Shown here in pieces: positions 55,622 through 63,827 of a stretch of DNA of 64,000 nucleotides (within the stretch, counting starts at the first letter, position 1; every line of letters begins with the position of its first letter). The notes beneath the pieces are model-generated. The model saw nothing but the letters and a program-made list of their open reading frames with translations, was not told the DNA's origin and searched no databases. Made by a program: the position numbers and the translations under genes. The stretch covers positions 62,001 through 126,000 of the forward strand of contig NZ_CP109078.1 in NCBI RefSeq assembly GCF_035917455.1, given 5' to 3'. This stretch comes from Micromonospora sp. NBC_01796 (GTDB lineage Bacteria > Actinomycetota > Actinomycetes > Mycobacteriales > Micromonosporaceae).

Positions 55622-57430
55622 TCAGACCGGCTCGACCGGTGCGGCCACCCCGGCGGTGCCGGCGTGTGCCGGGGTCGGCGGCTTCGGCTTGGCGTCGATG
55701 CCGGCCTCGGCGCGCTGCTGGCCGGTGATCGGGGTGGGTGCCCCGGTCAGCGGGTCGTACCCGCCACGGGTCTTCGGGAAGGCGATCACCTCGCGGATCG
55801 ACTCCGCCCCGGCGAGCAGCATGCAGACCCGGTCCCACCCGAACGCGATGCCGGCGTGCGGCGGGGGGCCGTACTTGAACGCCTCGAGCAGGAAGCCGAA
55901 CTTGTCCGTCGCCTCCTCGGGCGTGATACCGAGCAGGTCGAAGACCCGGCTCTGTACGTCGCCCCGGTGGATACGGACCGAGCCGCCGCCGATCTCGTTG
56001 CCGTTGCAGACGATGTCGTACGCGTACGCCAGGGCCCGGTCGGGTGCCTCCTCGAAGCGCCCCTCCCAGTCCGCGTTCGGGGAGGTGAACGGGTGGTGCA
56101 CCGCGGTCCAGCCGCCCTCGTCCGTGCGCTCGAACATCGGCGCGTCCACCACCCAGCAGAACGCCCAGGCGGACTCGTCGATCAGGTTCGACCGCTTGGC
56201 GATCTCGACCCGCGCCGCGCCGAGCAGTTCCTGTGCCTCGCGCTGGTTGGTAGAGGCGGCGAAGAAGACCGCGTCGCCGGGCTTGGCGCCGACGGCGTCG
56301 GCGAGCCCGCCGAGGTGCGCCTCGGAGAGGTTCTTCGCCACCGGTCCCCGGGCCTCGCCGGTCTCCGCGTCGAGCACCACGTACGCCAGGCCGCGAGCGC
56401 CGCGCGACTTGGCCCAGTCCTGCCAGCCGTCGAGTTCCTTGCGAGTCTGGCCGGCACCGCCGGGCATGACCACCGCACCGACGTAGCCGCCGGCGTCGAT
56501 CGCCCCGGCGAACACCCGGAACTCGGTGCCGCGCAGGTAGTCGGTCAGCTCGGTCAGCTCGACCCCGTAGCGCAGGTCGGGCTTGTCGGAGCCGTACCGG
56601 CTCATCGCGTCGTGCCAGGTGATGCGCGGGATCGGGGAGCTGATCTGGTGCCCGGCCAGTTCGCGCCAGAGGGTGGTGACGATCGCCTCACCGAGGTCGA
56701 TCACGTCGTCCTCGGTGACGAAGGACATCTCGATGTCGAGCTGGGTGAACTCCGGCTGCCGGTCGGCGCGGAAGTCCTCGTCCCGGTAGCAGCGGGCGAT
56801 CTGGTAGTACCGCTCCATCCCGCCGACCATCAGGAGCTGCTTGAACAGCTGCGGGGACTGCGGGAGGGCGTACCAGGAGCCGGGCTGGAGGCGCACGGGC
56901 ACCAGGAAGTCGCGGGCGCCCTCGGGCGTCGACCGGGTCAGGGTCGGCGTCTCGATCTCCAGGAAGTCGCGGTCGTGCAGCACGCCCCGGGCGAGCTGGT
57001 TGGCCTTCGAGCGGAGCTTGAGCGCGTTGGCCGGGCCGCTGCGGCGCAGGTCGAGGTAGCGGTAGCGCAGCCGGATGTCGTCGCCGGCCGCCACCTGGTC
57101 GTCGACCGGGAGCGGCAGTGGGGCGGCCTCGGAGAGGACGACCAGCTCGCTCGCGGTGACCTCGATCTCGCCGGTGGGCAGCTCGGAGTTGTCGTTGCCC
57201 TCGGGGCGGCGGGTGACCTCGCCGGTGACCAGGACGCAGAACTCGTTGCGCAGCGCGTGGGCGGATTCCATGCCCTCGCGGAAGACGACCTGGACCACGC
57301 CGGAGGAGTCGCGCAGGTCGACGAAGATCACGCCGCCGTGGTCGCGCCGGCGGGCCACCCAGCCGGCGAGCTTCACCGTGCTGCCGGCGTGCGTCGCGCG
57401 CAGGCTGCCGGCGTCATGGGTACGGATCAC
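55622..57430 (-). CDS. aspS: Aspartyl-tRNA synthetase, probably non-discriminating (Asp/Asn)
   Basis: 602 aa class IIb synthetase with N-terminal OB domain ([19 protein letters not shown]), motif 2 region ([20 protein letters not shown]), the bacterial GAD insertion (about 290-410) and motif 3 ([15 protein letters not shown]). His at residue 31 in RRDHGG, where discriminating enzymes such as E. coli have Leu, is the mark of the type that also charges tRNA-Asn for GatCAB amidation. A 45-residue Pro/Ala/Lys tail is added. GTG start. Confidence 0.95.
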
Positions 57431-57582
57431 GGCAGGGCTCTCCTCATGGGTCCAGGATGTGGCTCCTGCATTCTGTCAGGGCGGCTCGGCCGGCCCGGTG
57501 CCCTCCCCCGGACAGCCCCGGCCCGCTCCCCCGACCACCCGTGCCACCCTGGCAAAACGTGGCCAAGATTACTCCGATCGGA

Positions 57583-57613
57583 TTGGTAGGGAATGCAAGA
57601 TCGCGGGTATGGT
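57583..57613 (+). promoter_or_regulatory. Promoter of the peptide importer operon
   Basis: -35-like TTGGTA (57583-57588), 19-bp spacer, -10 TATGGT (57608-57613). The -10 is followed by exactly 7 nt and then an ATG, so the transcript should begin at that ATG without a leader. Confidence 0.5.
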
Positions 57614-57620
57614 CCCTGAC

Positions 57621-57698
57621 ATGAGCGTCGCGTATCCGTCCCAGTGTGCTGGGCGCATGGCCGGCGTCGCGCCGGTACGCGGCTGTTGTTGTCGCTGA
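57621..57698 (+). CDS. Cys-rich leader peptide of the peptide importer operon
   Basis: 25 codons, MSVAYPSQC at the start and VRGCCCR at the end: four cysteines, three of them consecutive just before the final Arg and stop. There is no ribosome site; the ATG coincides with the predicted transcription start. Leaderless short frames ending in consecutive Cys codons are known in mycobacteria to make downstream sulfur genes respond to cysteine supply. By analogy, ribosome stalling at the three TGT codons when Cys-tRNA is scarce would open the leader of the importer mRNA. The role here is inferred. Confidence 0.6.
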   Translation: MSVAYPSQCAGRMAGVAPVRGCCCR

Positions 57699-57733
57699 CC
57701 GTCTCGTCGTCAGCACACAGACTTTTCCCCGGC

Positions 57734-57766
57734 CGCCGGCTGCCCAGTGCCGCGCACCGGCCGGCG
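57734..57766 (+). promoter_or_regulatory. Leader hairpin after the Cys-rich peptide
   Basis: CGCCGGC / GCCGGCG, a 7-bp perfect stem with a 19-nt loop, 35 nt after the leader-peptide stop and about 80 nt before the binding-protein start. Candidate attenuator structure; alternative pairings with the earlier CCGGCG-TCG-CGCCGG hairpin (57662-57676) inside the leader peptide are possible. Confidence 0.4.
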
Positions 57767-57843
57767 CGTACGGCCCCTCCGATAACCCTCGCAAACGGTG
57801 CCGATCCGTCGTCATCGTGGCCCGCCACACCTGGAGCCAGCAC

Positions 57844-59406
57844 ATGTCGTCCAGCCCATCCGGGGGACGCTCCCCCGTACGTCACTTCCGTCGCCGGCTC
57901 GGCCTGGTCACGGCGGGGGCCGCGATCGGCGCCCTGCTGCTCAGCGCCTGCTCGAACTCGTCCGACGGCCCGTCCGGCAGCGCCGGTGGCGCCGACCCGG
58001 ACGCGACGATCACGATCGGTTCGCTGAACGAGCCGACCACGCTGAACACCGTCAAGGGCGGCAACACCGGTCACGCCCAGGTGCTGCTGCGCAACGTGGT
58101 CGAGGGTCTGACCGTGCTGACCGATGACGGCAAGGTCGAGCCGCTGCTGGCGAAGTCGTGGGACGTCTCGACGGACGGGACCACGTACACGTTCCACCTC
58201 CAGTCCGGGGTGACCTTCTCCGACGGCACCCCACTGAAGGCGGCCGACGTGGTGACCACGCTCAAGCGGGTGACCTCGGACGAGTCGACCAGCGCCCGGA
58301 AGAAGGACCTCTCGATCATGAAGACGATCGAGGCGCCGGACGACAACACGGTGAAGATCGCGCTCAGCCAGCGGTCGCAGTCGTTCCTGTTCTACCTGGC
58401 CTCGACCGGGGCCGCGGTGACCAAGCCCGGCGCCGGCAACCCGGAGACGACCGTGGTGGGTACCGGGCCGTACACGGTCGGCACCTGGAAGCAGGGCGAC
58501 TCGATCAACCTGGTCCGCAACGACAAGTACTGGGGCGACAAGGCGAAGAACAAGGAGGTGGTGTACCGCTTCTTCAAGGACACCACCGCCGAGAACAACG
58601 CCCTGCTCGCCGGCCAACTCGACCTAGTGACCCAGGTGACCAGCCCGGACGTGCTCGCCCAGTTCGAGAACCGGCCCGAGTTCACCATCGTCGAGGGCAC
58701 CTCGACCACCAAGGAGTTGTTCAACTTCAACGACTCGGTGGCCCCGTTCAACAACGTGGACGTACGCAAGGCGATCCGCCAGGCGACCGACCGGAAGGCG
58801 CTGCTGACCGCCGTCTGGGCTGAGCGCGGCCAGATCCTCGGCTCGATGGTCCCGCCGACCGACCCCTGGTACGAGGACCTGACCAGCATCGACGACCACA
58901 ACGTCGAGGGCGCCAAGGCGCTGCTGGCCAAGGCCGGCTTCGCCGGTGGGCTGTCGTTCACCGTGGACTACGTGCCGTCCGACTCGATCAACATCGTGGC
59001 GCAGGGGCTGAAGAGCCAGCTCGCCCAGGCCGGCATCAACATCACGCTGAACCCGATCGACGACGCCACCTGGACCGACAAGGTCTACAAGAACCACAAC
59101 TTCCAGGCCACGATCATGACCCACGTCAACCAGCGTGACCTGGTCTGGTACGGCAACCCGGACTTCTACTGGCAGTACAAGAACCCGCAGGTCCAGGAGT
59201 GGGTGAAGCAGTCCGAGACGGCCGCCACCGAGGCCGAGCAGACCGAGCTGTTGAAGAAGGTCGCCCGGCAGATCTCCGAGGACGCGGCGAGCGACTGGCT
59301 CTACCTCGACCCGGCAATCAAGATCGCGTCCAGCGCGGTCAGCGGCTACCAGAAGAACCTCACCACGGACAGCTTCTATGTCGCCCCGATCAGCAAGCAG
59401 CGCTGA
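57844..59406 (+). CDS. ABC transporter substrate-binding lipoprotein, SBP family 5 (peptide/opine/nickel type)
   Basis: 520 aa lipoprotein. Basic N-terminus (VRHFRRRLGLV), hydrophobic stretch, and lipobox LLSAC with the Cys at about residue 37. The SBP_bac_5 domain follows: ITIGSLNEPTTLNTVKGGN, LAKSWDVSTDGTTYTFHLQSGVTFSDGTPL (the family signature region), GTGPYTVGTWKQGD, NDKYWGD and RKAIRQATDRKALL. The ligand cannot be named; the Cys-rich leader upstream suggests a sulfur-containing compound. The ATG at 57844 is chosen over upstream frame extension because it gives a complete signal peptide. Confidence 0.88.
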   Translation: MSSSPSGGRSPVRHFRRRLGLVTAGAAIGALLLSACSNSSDGPSGSAGGADPDATITIGSLNEPTTLNTVKGGNTGHAQVLLRNVVEGLTVLTDDGKVEPLLAKSWDVSTDGTTYTFHLQSGVTFSDGTPLKAADVVTTLKRVTSDESTSARKKDLSIMKTIEAPDDNTVKIALSQRSQSFLFYLASTGAAVTKPGAGNPETTVVGTGPYTVGTWKQGDSINLVRNDKYWGDKAKNKEVVYRFFKDTTAENNALLAGQLDLVTQVTSPDVLAQFENRPEFTIVEGTSTTKELFNFNDSVAPFNNVDVRKAIRQATDRKALLTAVWAERGQILGSMVPPTDPWYEDLTSIDDHNVEGAKALLAKAGFAGGLSFTVDYVPSDSINIVAQGLKSQLAQAGINITLNPIDDATWTDKVYKNHNFQATIMTHVNQRDLVWYGNPDFYWQYKNPQVQEWVKQSETAATEAEQTELLKKVARQISEDAASDWLYLDPAIKIASSAVSGYQKNLTTDSFYVAPISKQR

Positions 59407-59426
59407 TTCCCCCGTCAGCGCGCCCT

Positions 59427-59465
59427 GGCCGGCCGGTACCCGCTCCCCCGGGTCACCGGCCGGCC
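59427..59465 (+). terminator. Strong hairpin between binding-protein and permease genes
   Basis: GGCCGGCCGGTACCCG pairs with CGGGT-C-ACCGGCCGGCC (one bulged C) around a 6-nt loop. Its position 20 nt after the binding-protein stop suggests partial termination or 3'-end protection, giving more binding protein than permease. A short GGCTYCGGCT-type repeat follows at about 59474-59506. Confidence 0.55.
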
Positions 59466-59538
59466 CTCGGCCGCTTCGGCTCCGGCTCCGGTCTCGGCTT
59501 CGGCTGAGGCGTTCGCAGGGACGGCGGTGGGGCTGACG

Positions 59539-60489
59539 ATGCTCGGATACCTGCTCCGCCGACTCGGCTGGCTGGTCGGCTCGCTGTTCCTGGCCGGCTC
59601 GGCGGTCTTCTTCCTGCTCCGGGTGCTGCCCGGCGACCCGGCCGTGACCCTGCTCGCGGTCGGCTCGCCACCGGAGCAGATCGAGGCGATCCGCCACCAG
59701 CTCGGCACCGACCGCCCCCTGCTCACCCAGTACGGCGACTGGTTCGGCGGGCTGTTCACCGGCAACCTCGGGGACAGCCTGTTCACCCGTACGCCGGTGC
59801 TGGAACAGATCGTCGACCGGCTGCCGGTGACCCTGCCGCTGGCGCTGAGCGCCTTCGTGGCCTCGATCCTGATCGCCGTACCGGTGGGGGTGTTCGCGGC
59901 GTTGCGCCGCCGCAACGCCGCCGGGGTCGCGGTCTCCGGCCTGGCCCAGCTCGGGATCGCGTTGCCGATCTTCTGGGTCGGCATCGTGGTCGTCTGGCTG
60001 GTCGCCGTGCAGTGGCGGTGGCTGCCGCCGGGCGGTTTCCCCCGCGACGGCTGGCAGGACCCCGGCGCCGCCGTGCAGTCGCTGGTCCTGCCGGTGGTCA
60101 CGCTGACCATCGCCCAGGCGTCCCTGCTGGTCCGGTACGTCCGGTCGGCCACCCTCGACGTGCTCAACCAGGAGTACATCCGGACCGCCCGGTCGCTCGG
60201 TTACAGCCTGCCGAGGGCGTTGTGGCGGCACGGGTTGCGCAACGGCGCCGCCCCGGTGGTGAACGTCCTCGGGGTCCTGCTCGCCGGTTCGCTGCTCGGC
60301 ACGGTGGTGATCGAGAGCGTCTTCGCCCTGCCCGGCCTCGGCAGCCTCCTGCTGACCAGTGTGAAGTCCCGGGACCTGCCGGTGGTGCAGGGCGCGGTCT
60401 TCCTGATGACCGCCACCGTCCTGCTGCTCGGCCTCGCCGTGGACCTGATCCAGCGGCTCATCGACCCCCGACTGCGAGGTCAGGCGTGA
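59539..60489 (+). CDS. Peptide-type ABC transporter permease (DppB-like)
   Basis: 316 aa with about six membrane helices. N-terminus MLGYLLRRLGWLVGSLF and RVLPGDPA are typical DppB features, and the EAA-type loop is EYIRTARSLGYSLPRALWRHGLRN near residue 210. ATG 59539 follows GGTGGGG; GTG 59527 is an alternative. It forms the membrane channel with the next gene product. Confidence 0.9.
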   Translation: MLGYLLRRLGWLVGSLFLAGSAVFFLLRVLPGDPAVTLLAVGSPPEQIEAIRHQLGTDRPLLTQYGDWFGGLFTGNLGDSLFTRTPVLEQIVDRLPVTLPLALSAFVASILIAVPVGVFAALRRRNAAGVAVSGLAQLGIALPIFWVGIVVVWLVAVQWRWLPPGGFPRDGWQDPGAAVQSLVLPVVTLTIAQASLLVRYVRSATLDVLNQEYIRTARSLGYSLPRALWRHGLRNGAAPVVNVLGVLLAGSLLGTVVIESVFALPGLGSLLLTSVKSRDLPVVQGAVFLMTATVLLLGLAVDLIQRLIDPRLRGQA

Positions 60490-61388
60490 CCGTACCGTTG
60501 TTGGACCCGACCATCGCGCCACCGGAAGCCCCGGTGGTGGCCGGTGCTCGCGCGCGCCGGGGTTGGTCACCGTCCCTGGTCGCCGGGGCGGTGCTGCTCG
60601 GCCTGATCCTGGCGTTGGCCCTGGTCAGCCTCTTCTGGACACCGTACGCCCTGGACCAGGCCACCCCCGGCGGGCGGCTCGCCGGCCCGTCGTCGGACCA
60701 CTGGGCCGGCACGGACCGGCTCGGCCGCGACCAGTTCACCCAGCTCATGCTCGGCGCCCGGACCGCCGTCTGGGTCGGCACGGCCGCAGTCGCGGTGGCG
60801 TTCGCACTCGGCCTGCCGCTCGGCCTGCTTGCCGCCTCCGGTGGCCGGATAGCCGACGACGCCGTGATCGGCGTGGTCGACATCCTGATCGCCTTCCCGA
60901 CCCTGCTGCTCGCGATGCTGCTGGTCACCGTCTACGGGGCATCGACCCTGGTGGCGATCATCGCGATCGGGGTGGGAGTCTGCGCAGAGGTGGCCCGGCT
61001 GACCCGGATCTCGGCCAGCCGGATCTTCACCCAGGACTACGTCCTCGCGGCCAGGACCTCCGGCACCGGGCCGATCATGATCCTGATCCGGCACGTGCTG
61101 CCGAACATCTGGCACACCCTGCTGGTCCAGGCCACCCTGGCGTTCGGGATCGCGGTGATCGCCGAGGCGTCTCTGTCGTACCTCGGTCTCGGCACCCCGC
61201 CGCCGGCACCGTCATGGGGTCGGATGCTCCAGGAGGCCCAGCCGACGGTGAGCGTCGCCCCCTGGAACGTGCTGATGCCCGGCATCGCCGTCGCCATCGC
61301 GGTGATCGGCGTGAACCTGCTCGGCGACGGCCTGCGCGAAACCCTCGACCCGCAACTGCGCCGCAACCGACGGGCGGTGAAACGATGA
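60486..61388 (+). CDS. Peptide-type ABC transporter permease (DppC-like)
   Basis: 300 aa. Cytoplasmic N-terminus, then the DppC N-terminal helix (SLVAGAVLLGLILALALVSLF), HWAGTDRLGRDQFTQLMLGARTA (a family signature) and the coupling loop DYVLAARTSGTGPIMILIRHVLPN. The GTG start overlaps the preceding stop (GTGA). Confidence 0.9.
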   Translation: MTVPLLDPTIAPPEAPVVAGARARRGWSPSLVAGAVLLGLILALALVSLFWTPYALDQATPGGRLAGPSSDHWAGTDRLGRDQFTQLMLGARTAVWVGTAAVAVAFALGLPLGLLAASGGRIADDAVIGVVDILIAFPTLLLAMLLVTVYGASTLVAIIAIGVGVCAEVARLTRISASRIFTQDYVLAARTSGTGPIMILIRHVLPNIWHTLLVQATLAFGIAVIAEASLSYLGLGTPPPAPSWGRMLQEAQPTVSVAPWNVLMPGIAVAIAVIGVNLLGDGLRETLDPQLRRNRRAVKR

Positions 61389-62185
61389 CCACGATCCTCG
61401 CCGCCGAACACCTCACCGTCACCCTTGACGACCGCACCCTGGTCAGGGACCTGGACGTCGAACTCGCCGCCCGCGACCGGGTCGGCCTGATCGGCGAGTC
61501 GGGGTCCGGGAAGTCGCTGACCGCACTCGCCCTGCTCGGTCTGCTGCCGGAAGGCATGCGGGTCAGCGGCACAATCACCGTCGACGGCCGCGACCTGATC
61601 GCCGCACCGGACCGCGACTGGCGACGCGTACGCGGAAACACCGTCAGCATGGTCTTCCAGGAACCGCTGACCGCGCTCGACCCGCTGATGCCGATCGGCC
61701 GACAGATCGCCGGCCCGCTGCGCCTGCACCGGGGCCTGAACCGGACCGACGCGCAGGCACAGGCCGTCCACTGGTGCGAAAGGGTGGGCCTACCCGACCC
61801 GGAACGCCTGGTACGGGCCCTGCCGCACGAGATCTCCGGGGGTCAACGGCAGCGGGTCGCCCTGGCGATGGCCCTGGCCTGCCGACCCAGGGTGCTGATC
61901 GCCGACGAGCCGACCACCGCGCTGGACGTGACCGTGCAGGCGCAGATCCTCGCCCTGCTCGACGAACTGATCGAGGAGACCTCGGTGGCGCTGCTCTTCA
62001 TCAGCCACGACCTGCCGGTGGTGGCCAACCTGGCGCAACGGCTGATCGTGATGCGCGACGGTCGGGTGGAGGAGTCCGGCGCCACCGAAGACGTCCTGCG
62101 CCGCCCCCGGTCCGCGTACGCCCGGCAGTTGGTCACCAGCGCGGCCCAGGTGACCCGCCTGACGGTTGGGACGGTTGAACGATGA
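61385..62185 (+). CDS. Peptide-type ABC transporter ATPase (DppD-like)
   Basis: 266 aa. Walker [14 protein letters not shown]-loop [15 protein letters not shown], signature [17 protein letters not shown], Walker [14 protein letters not shown], and switch His in FISHDLPVV. The usual C-terminal oligopeptide-binding Fe-S/Cys extension of DppD is absent, so it is a short version. ATG overlaps the permease stop (ATGA). Confidence 0.92.
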
Positions 62186-63042
62186 GCGCCGAACTGCTCG
62201 CCGGTCGTTCGCTGACCCGTCAGTACGCCGGGCGTCCCCGGCCCGCGCTGGACCAGGTGGATGTCACCATCGACAGTGGCGTGAGCCTCGGCATCGTCGG
62301 TGAGTCCGGTGCGGGCAAGAGCACGCTGCTGCGCCTGTTGCTCGGGGTCGACCGGCCCACCTCGGGTTCGGTTCTCTTCGGTGGGCAGCCGTTGGGCAAG
62401 GTGCCTCGGCGGGAGTTCCGCAGCCAGGTGCAGGTGGTCTTCCAGGACCCGCGCTCGTCGCTGAACCCCCGGATGTCGGTCGGTGCGATCGTCGCCGAGC
62501 CGCTCCGGTCGCTGAAGATCGGCAAGGACCGGGCGGAACGGGCGGACAGGGTGGCCGAGGTGCTGACCGCCGTGGGCCTGCATCCCGACGACGGGCGCCG
62601 GTACCCGCACGAGTTCTCCGGCGGTCAGCGGCAGCGCATCGCCATCGCCCGAGCGCTTGCCCCGTCACCTCGGCTGCTGCTCGCCGACGAACCGGTCAGC
62701 GCACTCGACGTCTCCGTACGTCTCCAGATCGTCGACCTGCTACGGGAACTGGTCGACACGCTCGGGCTGACGCTGGTGCTGGTGTCGCACGACCTGGCGA
62801 TCGTCAGCCAACTCTGCCAGCAGGTGCTGGTGATGCGGCACGGACGGGTGGTCGAGTCCGGCCCGACCGCGACCGTGCTCGAACGACCGACCCAGGACTA
62901 CACCCGCGCGCTGCTGGCCGCGATCCCCCAACTCCCCGCCGACCTGGTTGCCCCGCCGGGTAGGGCTGATCTGCTTCCGAGCGCGGCGGCCCTTCCGGGC
63001 GAGGCGGCGCTTCCGACTGCACGAACCGAGGAGACGGCATGA
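62182..63042 (+). CDS. Peptide-type ABC transporter ATPase (DppF-like)
   Basis: 286 aa. Walker [16 protein letters not shown]-loop [15 protein letters not shown] (the family's SLNPRM signature), [32 protein letters not shown] and [12 protein letters not shown]. The C-terminal ~45 residues form a low-complexity Ala/Pro/Leu tail. ATGA overlap with the preceding ATPase gene. The two ATPases are presumed to form a heterodimer. Confidence 0.92.
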
Positions 63043-63827
63043 GCGTCGACACCGATGTGACCAGCGACAACTTCGCCGACGAGTGGCGGAAGTGGCACGA
63101 CCAGCGGGAAACCAAGGTCTCCTCCCCCGGTGGTGACCTGACCCTGACCGGCACCAACTGGATCTCCGACGAGACGGTCATCGAGGGTGTGCCGGGACGC
63201 TGGTCGGTCGAGAACGGAGTCGTCCGGGTCACCGACGCGGCCGGGCTCACCGTCGACGGCGAGCCGGTCACCGAGGCGGTGCTCCGCGACGGCCAGTGGC
63301 TCGCCGTGGGCGATGTCGCGCTGGTCCTCATCCGCCGGGGCAACGACACCGCCGTACGGACCTACGACCCGAACTCCGAAGGGGTACGGACCTTCGCCGG
63401 CATCGACTCGTTCGCGCCTGATCCCGCGTGGGTGGTGACCGCCGAGTTCCGCCCGGCGGAGGTGGACACGACCGAGCACATCGTGCACACGAACTCGGGG
63501 CGTGAGGTCGACTACCAGGTGATCGGTACGTTCTCGTTCGCGGTGGACGGTCACGAGGTGGAGATGGTGGGGCTCGACACCGGTCACGTGGGCGAGGCGC
63601 ACCTGACCTTCCGGGACGCCACGAGCGGCAAGCAGTCGTACGCGGCTTCGCGCTTCCTGTTCGTACCGCTGCCGACCGGTCCGGGGCCGGTGACGCTGGA
63701 CTTCAACCGGGTGGAGCTGCCCCCGTGCGCCTTCTCCGACGCCTTCATCTGCCCCCTCCCGCCGCGCCAAAACATCCTCCCCTTCCCGGTAGAAGCCGGC
63801 GAACAACGCGTACGCACCCACGCCTGA
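63039..63827 (+). CDS. DUF1684 family protein
   Basis: 262 aa soluble protein. The N-terminal half is DEWRKWHDQRETKVSSPGGDLTLTG-like (the family's opening). The C-terminal half ends in LDFNRVELPPCAFSDAFICPLPPRQNILPFPVEAGE, which carries the conserved Cys/Pro core of DUF1684. No catalytic role is established. A 4-bp overlap with the last ATPase gene places it firmly in the importer operon, so it probably processes or binds the imported compound. Confidence 0.85.
   Translation: MSVDTDVTSDNFADEWRKWHDQRETKVSSPGGDLTLTGTNWISDETVIEGVPGRWSVENGVVRVTDAAGLTVDGEPVTEAVLRDGQWLAVGDVALVLIRRGNDTAVRTYDPNSEGVRTFAGIDSFAPDPAWVVTAEFRPAEVDTTEHIVHTNSGREVDYQVIGTFSFAVDGHEVEMVGLDTGHVGEAHLTFRDATSGKQSYAASRFLFVPLPTGPGPVTLDFNRVELPPCAFSDAFICPLPPRQNILPFPVEAGEQRVRTHA

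Follow-up and report, generated by a model that had tools for sequence, protein, structure and literature searches.

A conserved leader frame ending in cysteine codons precedes a peptide-family importer operon in Micromonospora

Introduction

The genome of Micromonospora sp. NBC_01796 (8.56 Mb, one contig) contains a short open reading frame that ends in a run of cysteine codons and lies upstream of a peptide-family ABC importer operon. The locus raises the question of whether this frame is a real leader, how it could control the operon, and what the importer carries. We addressed it in a stretch of 64,000 nucleotides, called the window below. In the trp, his, and ilv attenuators, the leader peptide holds regulatory codons of the amino acid, and their pairing partner lies downstream. 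Polycysteine leaderless short ORFs of mycobacteria were reportedly described by Canestrari et al. in 2020. PMC9031893, PMC9094748, and PMC13236596 describe cysteine leaders of this kind in mycobacteria and cite that study, and the last of these presents ilvB1 as a case of an amino-acid leader-peptide attenuator. The original prediction for this locus knew of no described cysteine leader on a peptide-family importer, and we likewise found none in the open-access literature, most subscription papers lying outside its scope.

Results

The importer operon

The operon holds an importer set of the PepT (SBP5) type, with the SBP_bac_5 protein, BPD_transp_1 permeases, and ABC ATPases in one operon. 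Its genes, with the neighbouring aspS at the head of the list, are as follows.

55622-57430, minus strand: aspS (835.8 bits against a cut-off of 443)
57844-59406, plus strand: SBP_bac_5 solute-binding lipoprotein gene (PF00496, E 4e-83)
59527-60489, plus strand: permease 1, peptide/nickel family (PF00528 and PF19300)
60573-61388, plus strand: permease 2, start approximate (PF00528)
61382-62185, plus strand: ATPase 1, start approximate (PF00005)
62182-63042, plus strand: ATPase 2 (PF00005, weak oligo_HPY)
63039-63827, plus strand: DUF1684 protein with C-x7-C (CAFSDAFIC) (PF07920, E 1.6e-39, 135.8 bits against 25)

The leader frame

The elements between aspS and the Shine-Dalgarno site of the binding-protein gene are as follows.

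57574-57594, plus strand: CCGATCGGNNTRGTAGGRAAT block 5' of the -10-like hexamer, a candidate regulator site conserved in some orthologs
57608-57613, plus strand: -10-like hexamer TATGGT, seven bases 5' of the leader ATG
57621-57698, plus strand: leader frame MSVAYPSQCAGRMAGVAPVRGCCCR, 25 codons from an ATG start, stop included
57684-57698, plus strand: proposed cysteine sensor (three TGT, CGC, stop), its Cys run kept in 12/12 orthologs
57685-57722, plus strand: hairpin of the Cys/Arg/stop codons (GCTGAC) with GTCAGC and flanks, a six-pair core in 3/3 lineage members
57699-57829, plus strand: untranslated C-rich interval from the leader stop to the Shine-Dalgarno site (131 nt, C 0.44, G 0.27)
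57830-57836, plus strand: Shine-Dalgarno site CCTGGAG of the binding-protein gene, at the same place in 12/12 orthologs

The frame and its start agree with the original prediction, which had described 25 codons with three TGT before the final Arg and stop and an ATG 7 nt after TATGGT. The 3' end of the leader reads TGT TGT TGT CGC TGA, and the fourth TGT is codon 9. TGT is used for 4/4 cysteine codons of the leader, compared with 17/135 across the 53 predicted genes. Counting nested starts separately, the window contains 780 short frames of 10-45 codons, three of which have CCC among the last six residues, and the only one of these three with TA-N3-T 6-8 nt 5' of its start is the leader at 57621. 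Frames combining CCC with TA-N3-T numbered zero in total in 40 dinucleotide shuffles of the window. The Cys run by itself is not rare, since the pattern TGYTGYTGYN{0,6}TRA occurs 106 times genome-wide against 100 in the reversed control. Of 44 in-frame Cys-run sites inspected among these 106 matches, the 57621 leader was the only one to combine a -10-like hexamer with a start no more than 45 codons away.

Conservation among orthologs

We searched 61 relatives for the binding protein and then extended the search to 354 family genomes, 52 of which gave a match at E 1e-120 or better. Among the 53 places listed, 12 have 80-100% identity (genera g1, g4, g22, and g32, own genome included). All 12 of these close orthologs carry a leader 5' of the gene that ends in two to four consecutive Cys codons (CCC in 10, CCCC in one, and CC in one). 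There are three unlike leader bodies, namely MSVAYPSQCAGRMAGVAPVRGCCCR together with two relatives, VN.APSLDRTPLAVRVVAARRICCC in eight genomes with one or two variable residues, and MNTTALTWHIGPASGMVPGRRHCCR in one. Since the bodies of the three lineages are unlike each other, conservation acts on the Cys codons rather than on the peptide. Judged from the alignments, the leader frame is under selection at the codon level, because seven orthologs with the second-lineage leader have 1, 3, and 11 variable columns on codon positions 1, 2, and 3 (binomial P 0.0018 against equal thirds, relatedness ignored) and because L020 differs from L018 by a single extra in-frame TGT in the leader. One of the 12 orthologs (L035, G297:C51) has an intact leader and a binding-protein match that spans only residues 151-519, which may be a broken gene or a draft error.

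The original prediction had proposed comparing the upstream regions of related operons. The refuting case that it had named, an operon conserved without the frame, did not arise among true orthologs. The leader stays with the operon in the 12 close orthologs but is missing in all 35 homologous importers at 42-52% identity (18 found in the 354-genome family search and 17 in a search of 394 genomes across the class). The scan of these 35 covered 1.5 kb upstream and looked for frames that have two Cys among their last ten residues and a -10-like hexamer. The leader is therefore confined to one clade of the importer. In several of the 42-52% homologs, inspection by eye shows the DUF1684 gene preceding the binding-protein gene.

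Promoter side of the leader

The TA-N3-T motif stands 7 nt before the leader start in 11/12 orthologs and 6 nt in 1/12. The strings GGAG, GAGG, and AGGA are absent from positions -16 to -4 of the leader start in 12/12. From the sequence we infer a leaderless start, in which the transcript 5' end would be at 57621 and the leader would come first in the transcript. The sigma-70 scan gave no promoters, and TTGGTA at 57583 would give a 19-nt spacer to the -10-like hexamer.

L018, L020, and L034 carry the CCGATCGGNNTRGTAGGRAAT block intact, L019 has it with one mismatch, and it is absent from the eight orthologs of the second lineage. Its only exact match in the own genome is the 57574 site, and the next best has two mismatches. 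At three mismatches or fewer, the own genome gives 7 matches against 0 in the reversed control. We rejected the block as a regulon-wide operator, as there is no second strong genomic site and the six weaker sites are without a Cys leader.

RNA structure and the C-rich interval

For the eight orthologs of the second lineage, RNAalifold predicts a helix between the Cys and stop codons and the downstream element GTCATCAACGTC, and each of the eight also folds this helix on its own. In the helix, which was derived from the same sequences on which it is scored, 94.4% of cells are paired, compared with 21.5-63.8% when it is slid by 1-3 columns. Two pairs are changed on both sides, and the covariation score is reached by 2/500 shuffles; the pair-count and pair-type measures are not beyond shuffles (130 and 101 of 500). 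Conservation in the interval is highest at the 3' arm, where 13/22 columns are invariant, versus 29/107. Outside this alignment, 8/60 shuffles of the downstream sequence reach the native strength of the L018 pairing, which is not significant, and L034 misfits the helix, with 58/60 shuffles pairing equally well. Shuffling the downstream sequence weakens the pairing on average in 11/12 orthologs, and in the longer test the pairing beats all but at most 3 of 60 shuffles in only 5/12. The predicted helix between the Cys/stop codons and the downstream sequence is thus supported in one lineage, plausible in another, and not supported in the remaining one. Because the Cys and stop codons sit in this helix, a stalled ribosome would melt it.

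The hairpin that the original prediction placed between the leader and the gene does exist, at 57729-57773, but it is not the conserved feature, and its role as the working element is not supported. Its 90-nt stretch is just slightly more stable than shuffles (z -1.66, against +0.13 in the 97% relative), and the hairpin folds in L018 and L019 and not, in that form, in L020 or the second lineage. The pairing of the Cys codons themselves is the better candidate for the working element. Taken over all 243 nt, the region shows no stability beyond that of shuffles (z -0.04). Searches for an intrinsic terminator (hairpin and U tract) gave none 3' of the leader, and the sole terminator-like site in 57400-57900 is inside the leader. 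Rfam covariance models had no matches in 57400-58000 or in L020, L021, L029, and L034.

The distance from the leader stop to the Shine-Dalgarno site is 131-174 nt among the orthologs. Masking the leader to 8 nt past the stop in the folding made the Shine-Dalgarno site more open in 1/12, equal in 3, and less open in 8, and it made the start-codon (AUG) region more open in 7/12, less open in 4, and equal in 1. The interval has a C content of 0.41-0.48 and a G content of 0.23-0.27 in 12/12 orthologs, and despite sequence divergence the C excess over G is 16-30 in the best 78 nt of each. An excess of 16 is reached by 7/51 control upstream regions, whose genes were called by a simple script with rough starts, and two of the seven are intervals of these orthologs.

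Other cysteine leaders in the genome

NCBIfam leader families gave no match to the window leader or three relatives at E values up to 10. The families NF042933 (Ms5788A), NF042936 (Ms4527A), and NF042934 (cis_reg_atten) resemble the 57621-type leader in having about 25 codons and Cys near the end. They differ in carrying an R-x-V/I-D-L-x-R body with one or two Cys that are spaced apart, whereas the 57621 type lacks this body and has two to four adjacent Cys.

Searching the own genome with NF042934 gave four matches above the cut-off among the 24 matches listed. These four leaders precede genes for a luciferase-like monooxygenase, a rhodanese, an M14 zinc carboxypeptidase, and a flavin reductase. 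The monooxygenase belongs to PF00296 and scores 262.7 bits with the NtaA/DmoA model, just under the cut-off of 279.7, and the leader of the rhodanese is also above the Ms5788A cut-off (61.1 vs 45 bits), which makes it a positive control for the lack of a match in the 57621 leader. Leaders that score below the cut-off but have a clear leader sequence precede the genes for a PF03601 protein, an SBP3 protein, an amino-acid-type permease whose best NCBIfam model is cystine permease (below cut-off), and sulfite reductase. Only the strong matches count, because below-cut-off matches with NF042934 arise in 10/14 control genomes. Since cysteine leaders of the known type precede sulfur genes in its genome, such leaders are very probably in use in this organism, the 57621 leader being an additional one of another make.

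Three of the Cys-leader matches (7039779, 7058110, and 7068074) and a weaker one (7047117) fall within G000:C1:7030001-7070000 (L152, L153), together with luciferase-like monooxygenases, an SBP3 gene, and a peptide-family permease. This region looks like an organosulfur-use cluster with another peptide-type importer amid Cys leaders. The M14 zinc carboxypeptidase gene behind the over-cut-off leader at 7039779 (L137) is an unexpected target, which would fit sulfur scavenging from peptides. The near-palindrome TTCCTATCGACCAGATAGGAAT lies directly 5' of the Cys leader at 7068074 (L139) before the PF03601 gene and is a possible regulator site beside the leader.

Substrate of the importer and the DUF1684 protein

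The importer matches PepT (TC 3.A.1.5) in its SBP_bac_5 protein, two BPD_transp_1 permeases, and two ATPases. It differs in that no NCBIfam equivalog or substrate model reaches its cut-off for the binding protein. The closest solved chains, at modest or low similarity, are AgaA, an unnamed binding protein, AapF, and YliB, the last of which we take to be GsiB, the glutathione binder. As the solved relatives bind varied ligands, the substrate of the SBP5 protein is not readable from sequence. The cargo is probably an organosulfur compound that would serve as a cysteine or sulfur source; the thiol peptide that the original prediction gave as an example is a guess.

The DUF1684 partner gives two independent hints at sulfur, one from gene context in Leifsonia and Nocardioides and one from a report on Haloferax. 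In Leifsonia (L009), the DUF1684 gene has an SBP3 gene on one side and NtaA/DmoA-family monooxygenase genes on the other, and a GNAT gene is close by. One of these monooxygenases scores 366.9 bits, above the cut-off of 279.7, and the best meaningful match of the SBP3 protein is a cystine-binding protein at 89 bits, under the cut-off of 312, with a kinase model slightly higher. The Nocardioides locus (L015) has two NtaA/DmoA-type monooxygenase genes and an importer permease within 8 kb. One of its monooxygenases is above the cut-off (340.3 bits), and one of the two is fused to a GNAT domain. According to PMC9426492, modelling placed a Haloferax DUF1684 protein with C-x7-C in a thiol-relay group. 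C-x7-C is present in the DUF1684 proteins of 18/20 loci scanned, the exceptions being L041 and L151. The latter (G000:C1:256061-256486) is a second DUF1684 gene of the own genome, with no importer seen nearby.

DUF1684 does not serve as a general marker in either sense. The combination of a leader and a -10-like hexamer was found in 0/9 DUF1684 loci from other taxa and in none of three longer distant-homolog stretches, and we rejected DUF1684 as a general Cys-leader marker. Sulfur gene context was seen in 2 of these 9 loci, the two being checked by family profiles. In Amycolatopsis (L012-L014), the neighbours of DUF1684 resemble proteasome-accessory genes (by eye, L012). Because of this setting, the sulfur link of DUF1684 is not general, and we rejected DUF1684 as a general sulfur-locus marker.

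Discussion

The leader is real and conserved. The simplest interpretation is a cysteine attenuator that belongs to a new leader family and acts on a new type of target. In the reading that we hold with good confidence, the operon 57844-63827 is under cysteine-responsive attenuation, in which stalling on the leader would release the pairing and the cargo would probably be an organosulfur compound. The proposed transcription start is at or beside the ATG at 57621, so the leader frame would come first in the mRNA. With ample charged tRNA-Cys, ribosomes would complete the leader and depart, the Cys and stop codons would pair downstream, and the importer would stay low. When charged tRNA-Cys is scarce, a ribosome would stall on the rare TGT run beside the stop and block that pairing. 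The stalled ribosome would also cover the beginning of the C-rich interval, and the cell would make the importer together with its DUF1684 partner. The stalling and the direction of regulation, induction when cysteine is limiting, are both our reading of the locus. The original interpretation, which likewise made the importer inducible by cysteine limitation, is partly supported: it gains from the Cys leader being kept with the operon and from the leaders before sulfur genes in the genome, but its hairpin is not supported as the working element.

The step downstream of stalling allows two explanations, and we slightly prefer Rho-type termination over a translation block. In the tna operon, a ribosome stalled beside the stop covers the Rho entry site. 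A Rho-type transcription attenuation here, in which the C-rich interval loads Rho after ribosome exit and a stalled ribosome covers the entry, is possible, and we favour it tentatively. The C-rich, G-poor composition in all orthologs, although they have diverged, is a weak hint in its favour, and the lack of an intrinsic terminator 3' of the leader also speaks for it, but composition is insufficient by itself for a Rho site, the orthologs are related, and some control regions are equally C-rich. Translation attenuation of the mycobacterial polycysteine type, with leader RNA covering the Shine-Dalgarno site unless a ribosome stalls, seems rather doubtful. It is the type of mechanism reported in M. 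smegmatis according to PMC9031893 and PMC13236596, and the opening of the AUG region in most orthologs on masking speaks for it. The AUG outcome is mixed, however, masking opened the Shine-Dalgarno site in a single ortholog, and the site lies far from the leader stop.

Readings without a sensor fare worse. It is improbable that the leader senses nothing and is just a constitutive upstream frame or encodes a small protein with a function of its own, since the terminal Cys run alone is common to the three lineages, all four Cys codons of the 57621 leader are the rare TGT, and other Cys leaders precede sulfur genes in the same genome. A chance frame with three Cys codons by accident is hardly credible. 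Strings of a Cys triplet and stop are about as frequent in the reversed genome, but conservation in every close ortholog refutes this explanation, and the codon bias and the empty shuffled windows also stand against it. A bolder version of cysteine attenuation, which we regard as unlikely in its entirety, would combine a new leader family whose body is unrelated to the known actinobacterial type, a dedicated organosulfur importer, a DUF1684 protein as thiol-handling partner, and a ribosome on the terminal Cys codons that keeps Rho off the C-rich leader. Such a system would be the cysteine counterpart of the tna-type attenuator.

The points of interest are the target operon and the missing ribosome-site hairpin. 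The leader shares with the mycobacterial polycysteine ORFs a short frame, no Shine-Dalgarno site, a near-terminal Cys run, a start 6-7 nt after a -10-like hexamer, and, as we infer here, the first place in the transcript. It differs in its target, a peptide-family importer with DUF1684, and in the long stretch between leader stop and Shine-Dalgarno, for which folding gives no site hiding. The lack of predicted hiding lowers the claim of the same output step and not that of cysteine sensing. With the trp, his, and ilv attenuators, the leader has in common the amino-acid codons and a downstream pairing partner, and it differs from them in its predicted leaderless-type start and in the intrinsic terminator, which was not found here.

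These results would add a peptide-family importer, and one outside mycobacteria, to the sulfur-assimilation operons under cysteine-leader control. Cys leaders whose body differs escape the curated leader families, and more Cys leaders are therefore probably unannotated. A Cys leader is a cheap functional clue, marking here an importer and a DUF1684 protein as probably sulfur-related. The leader most likely lets the cell turn on uptake of a sulfur compound when cysteine is short.
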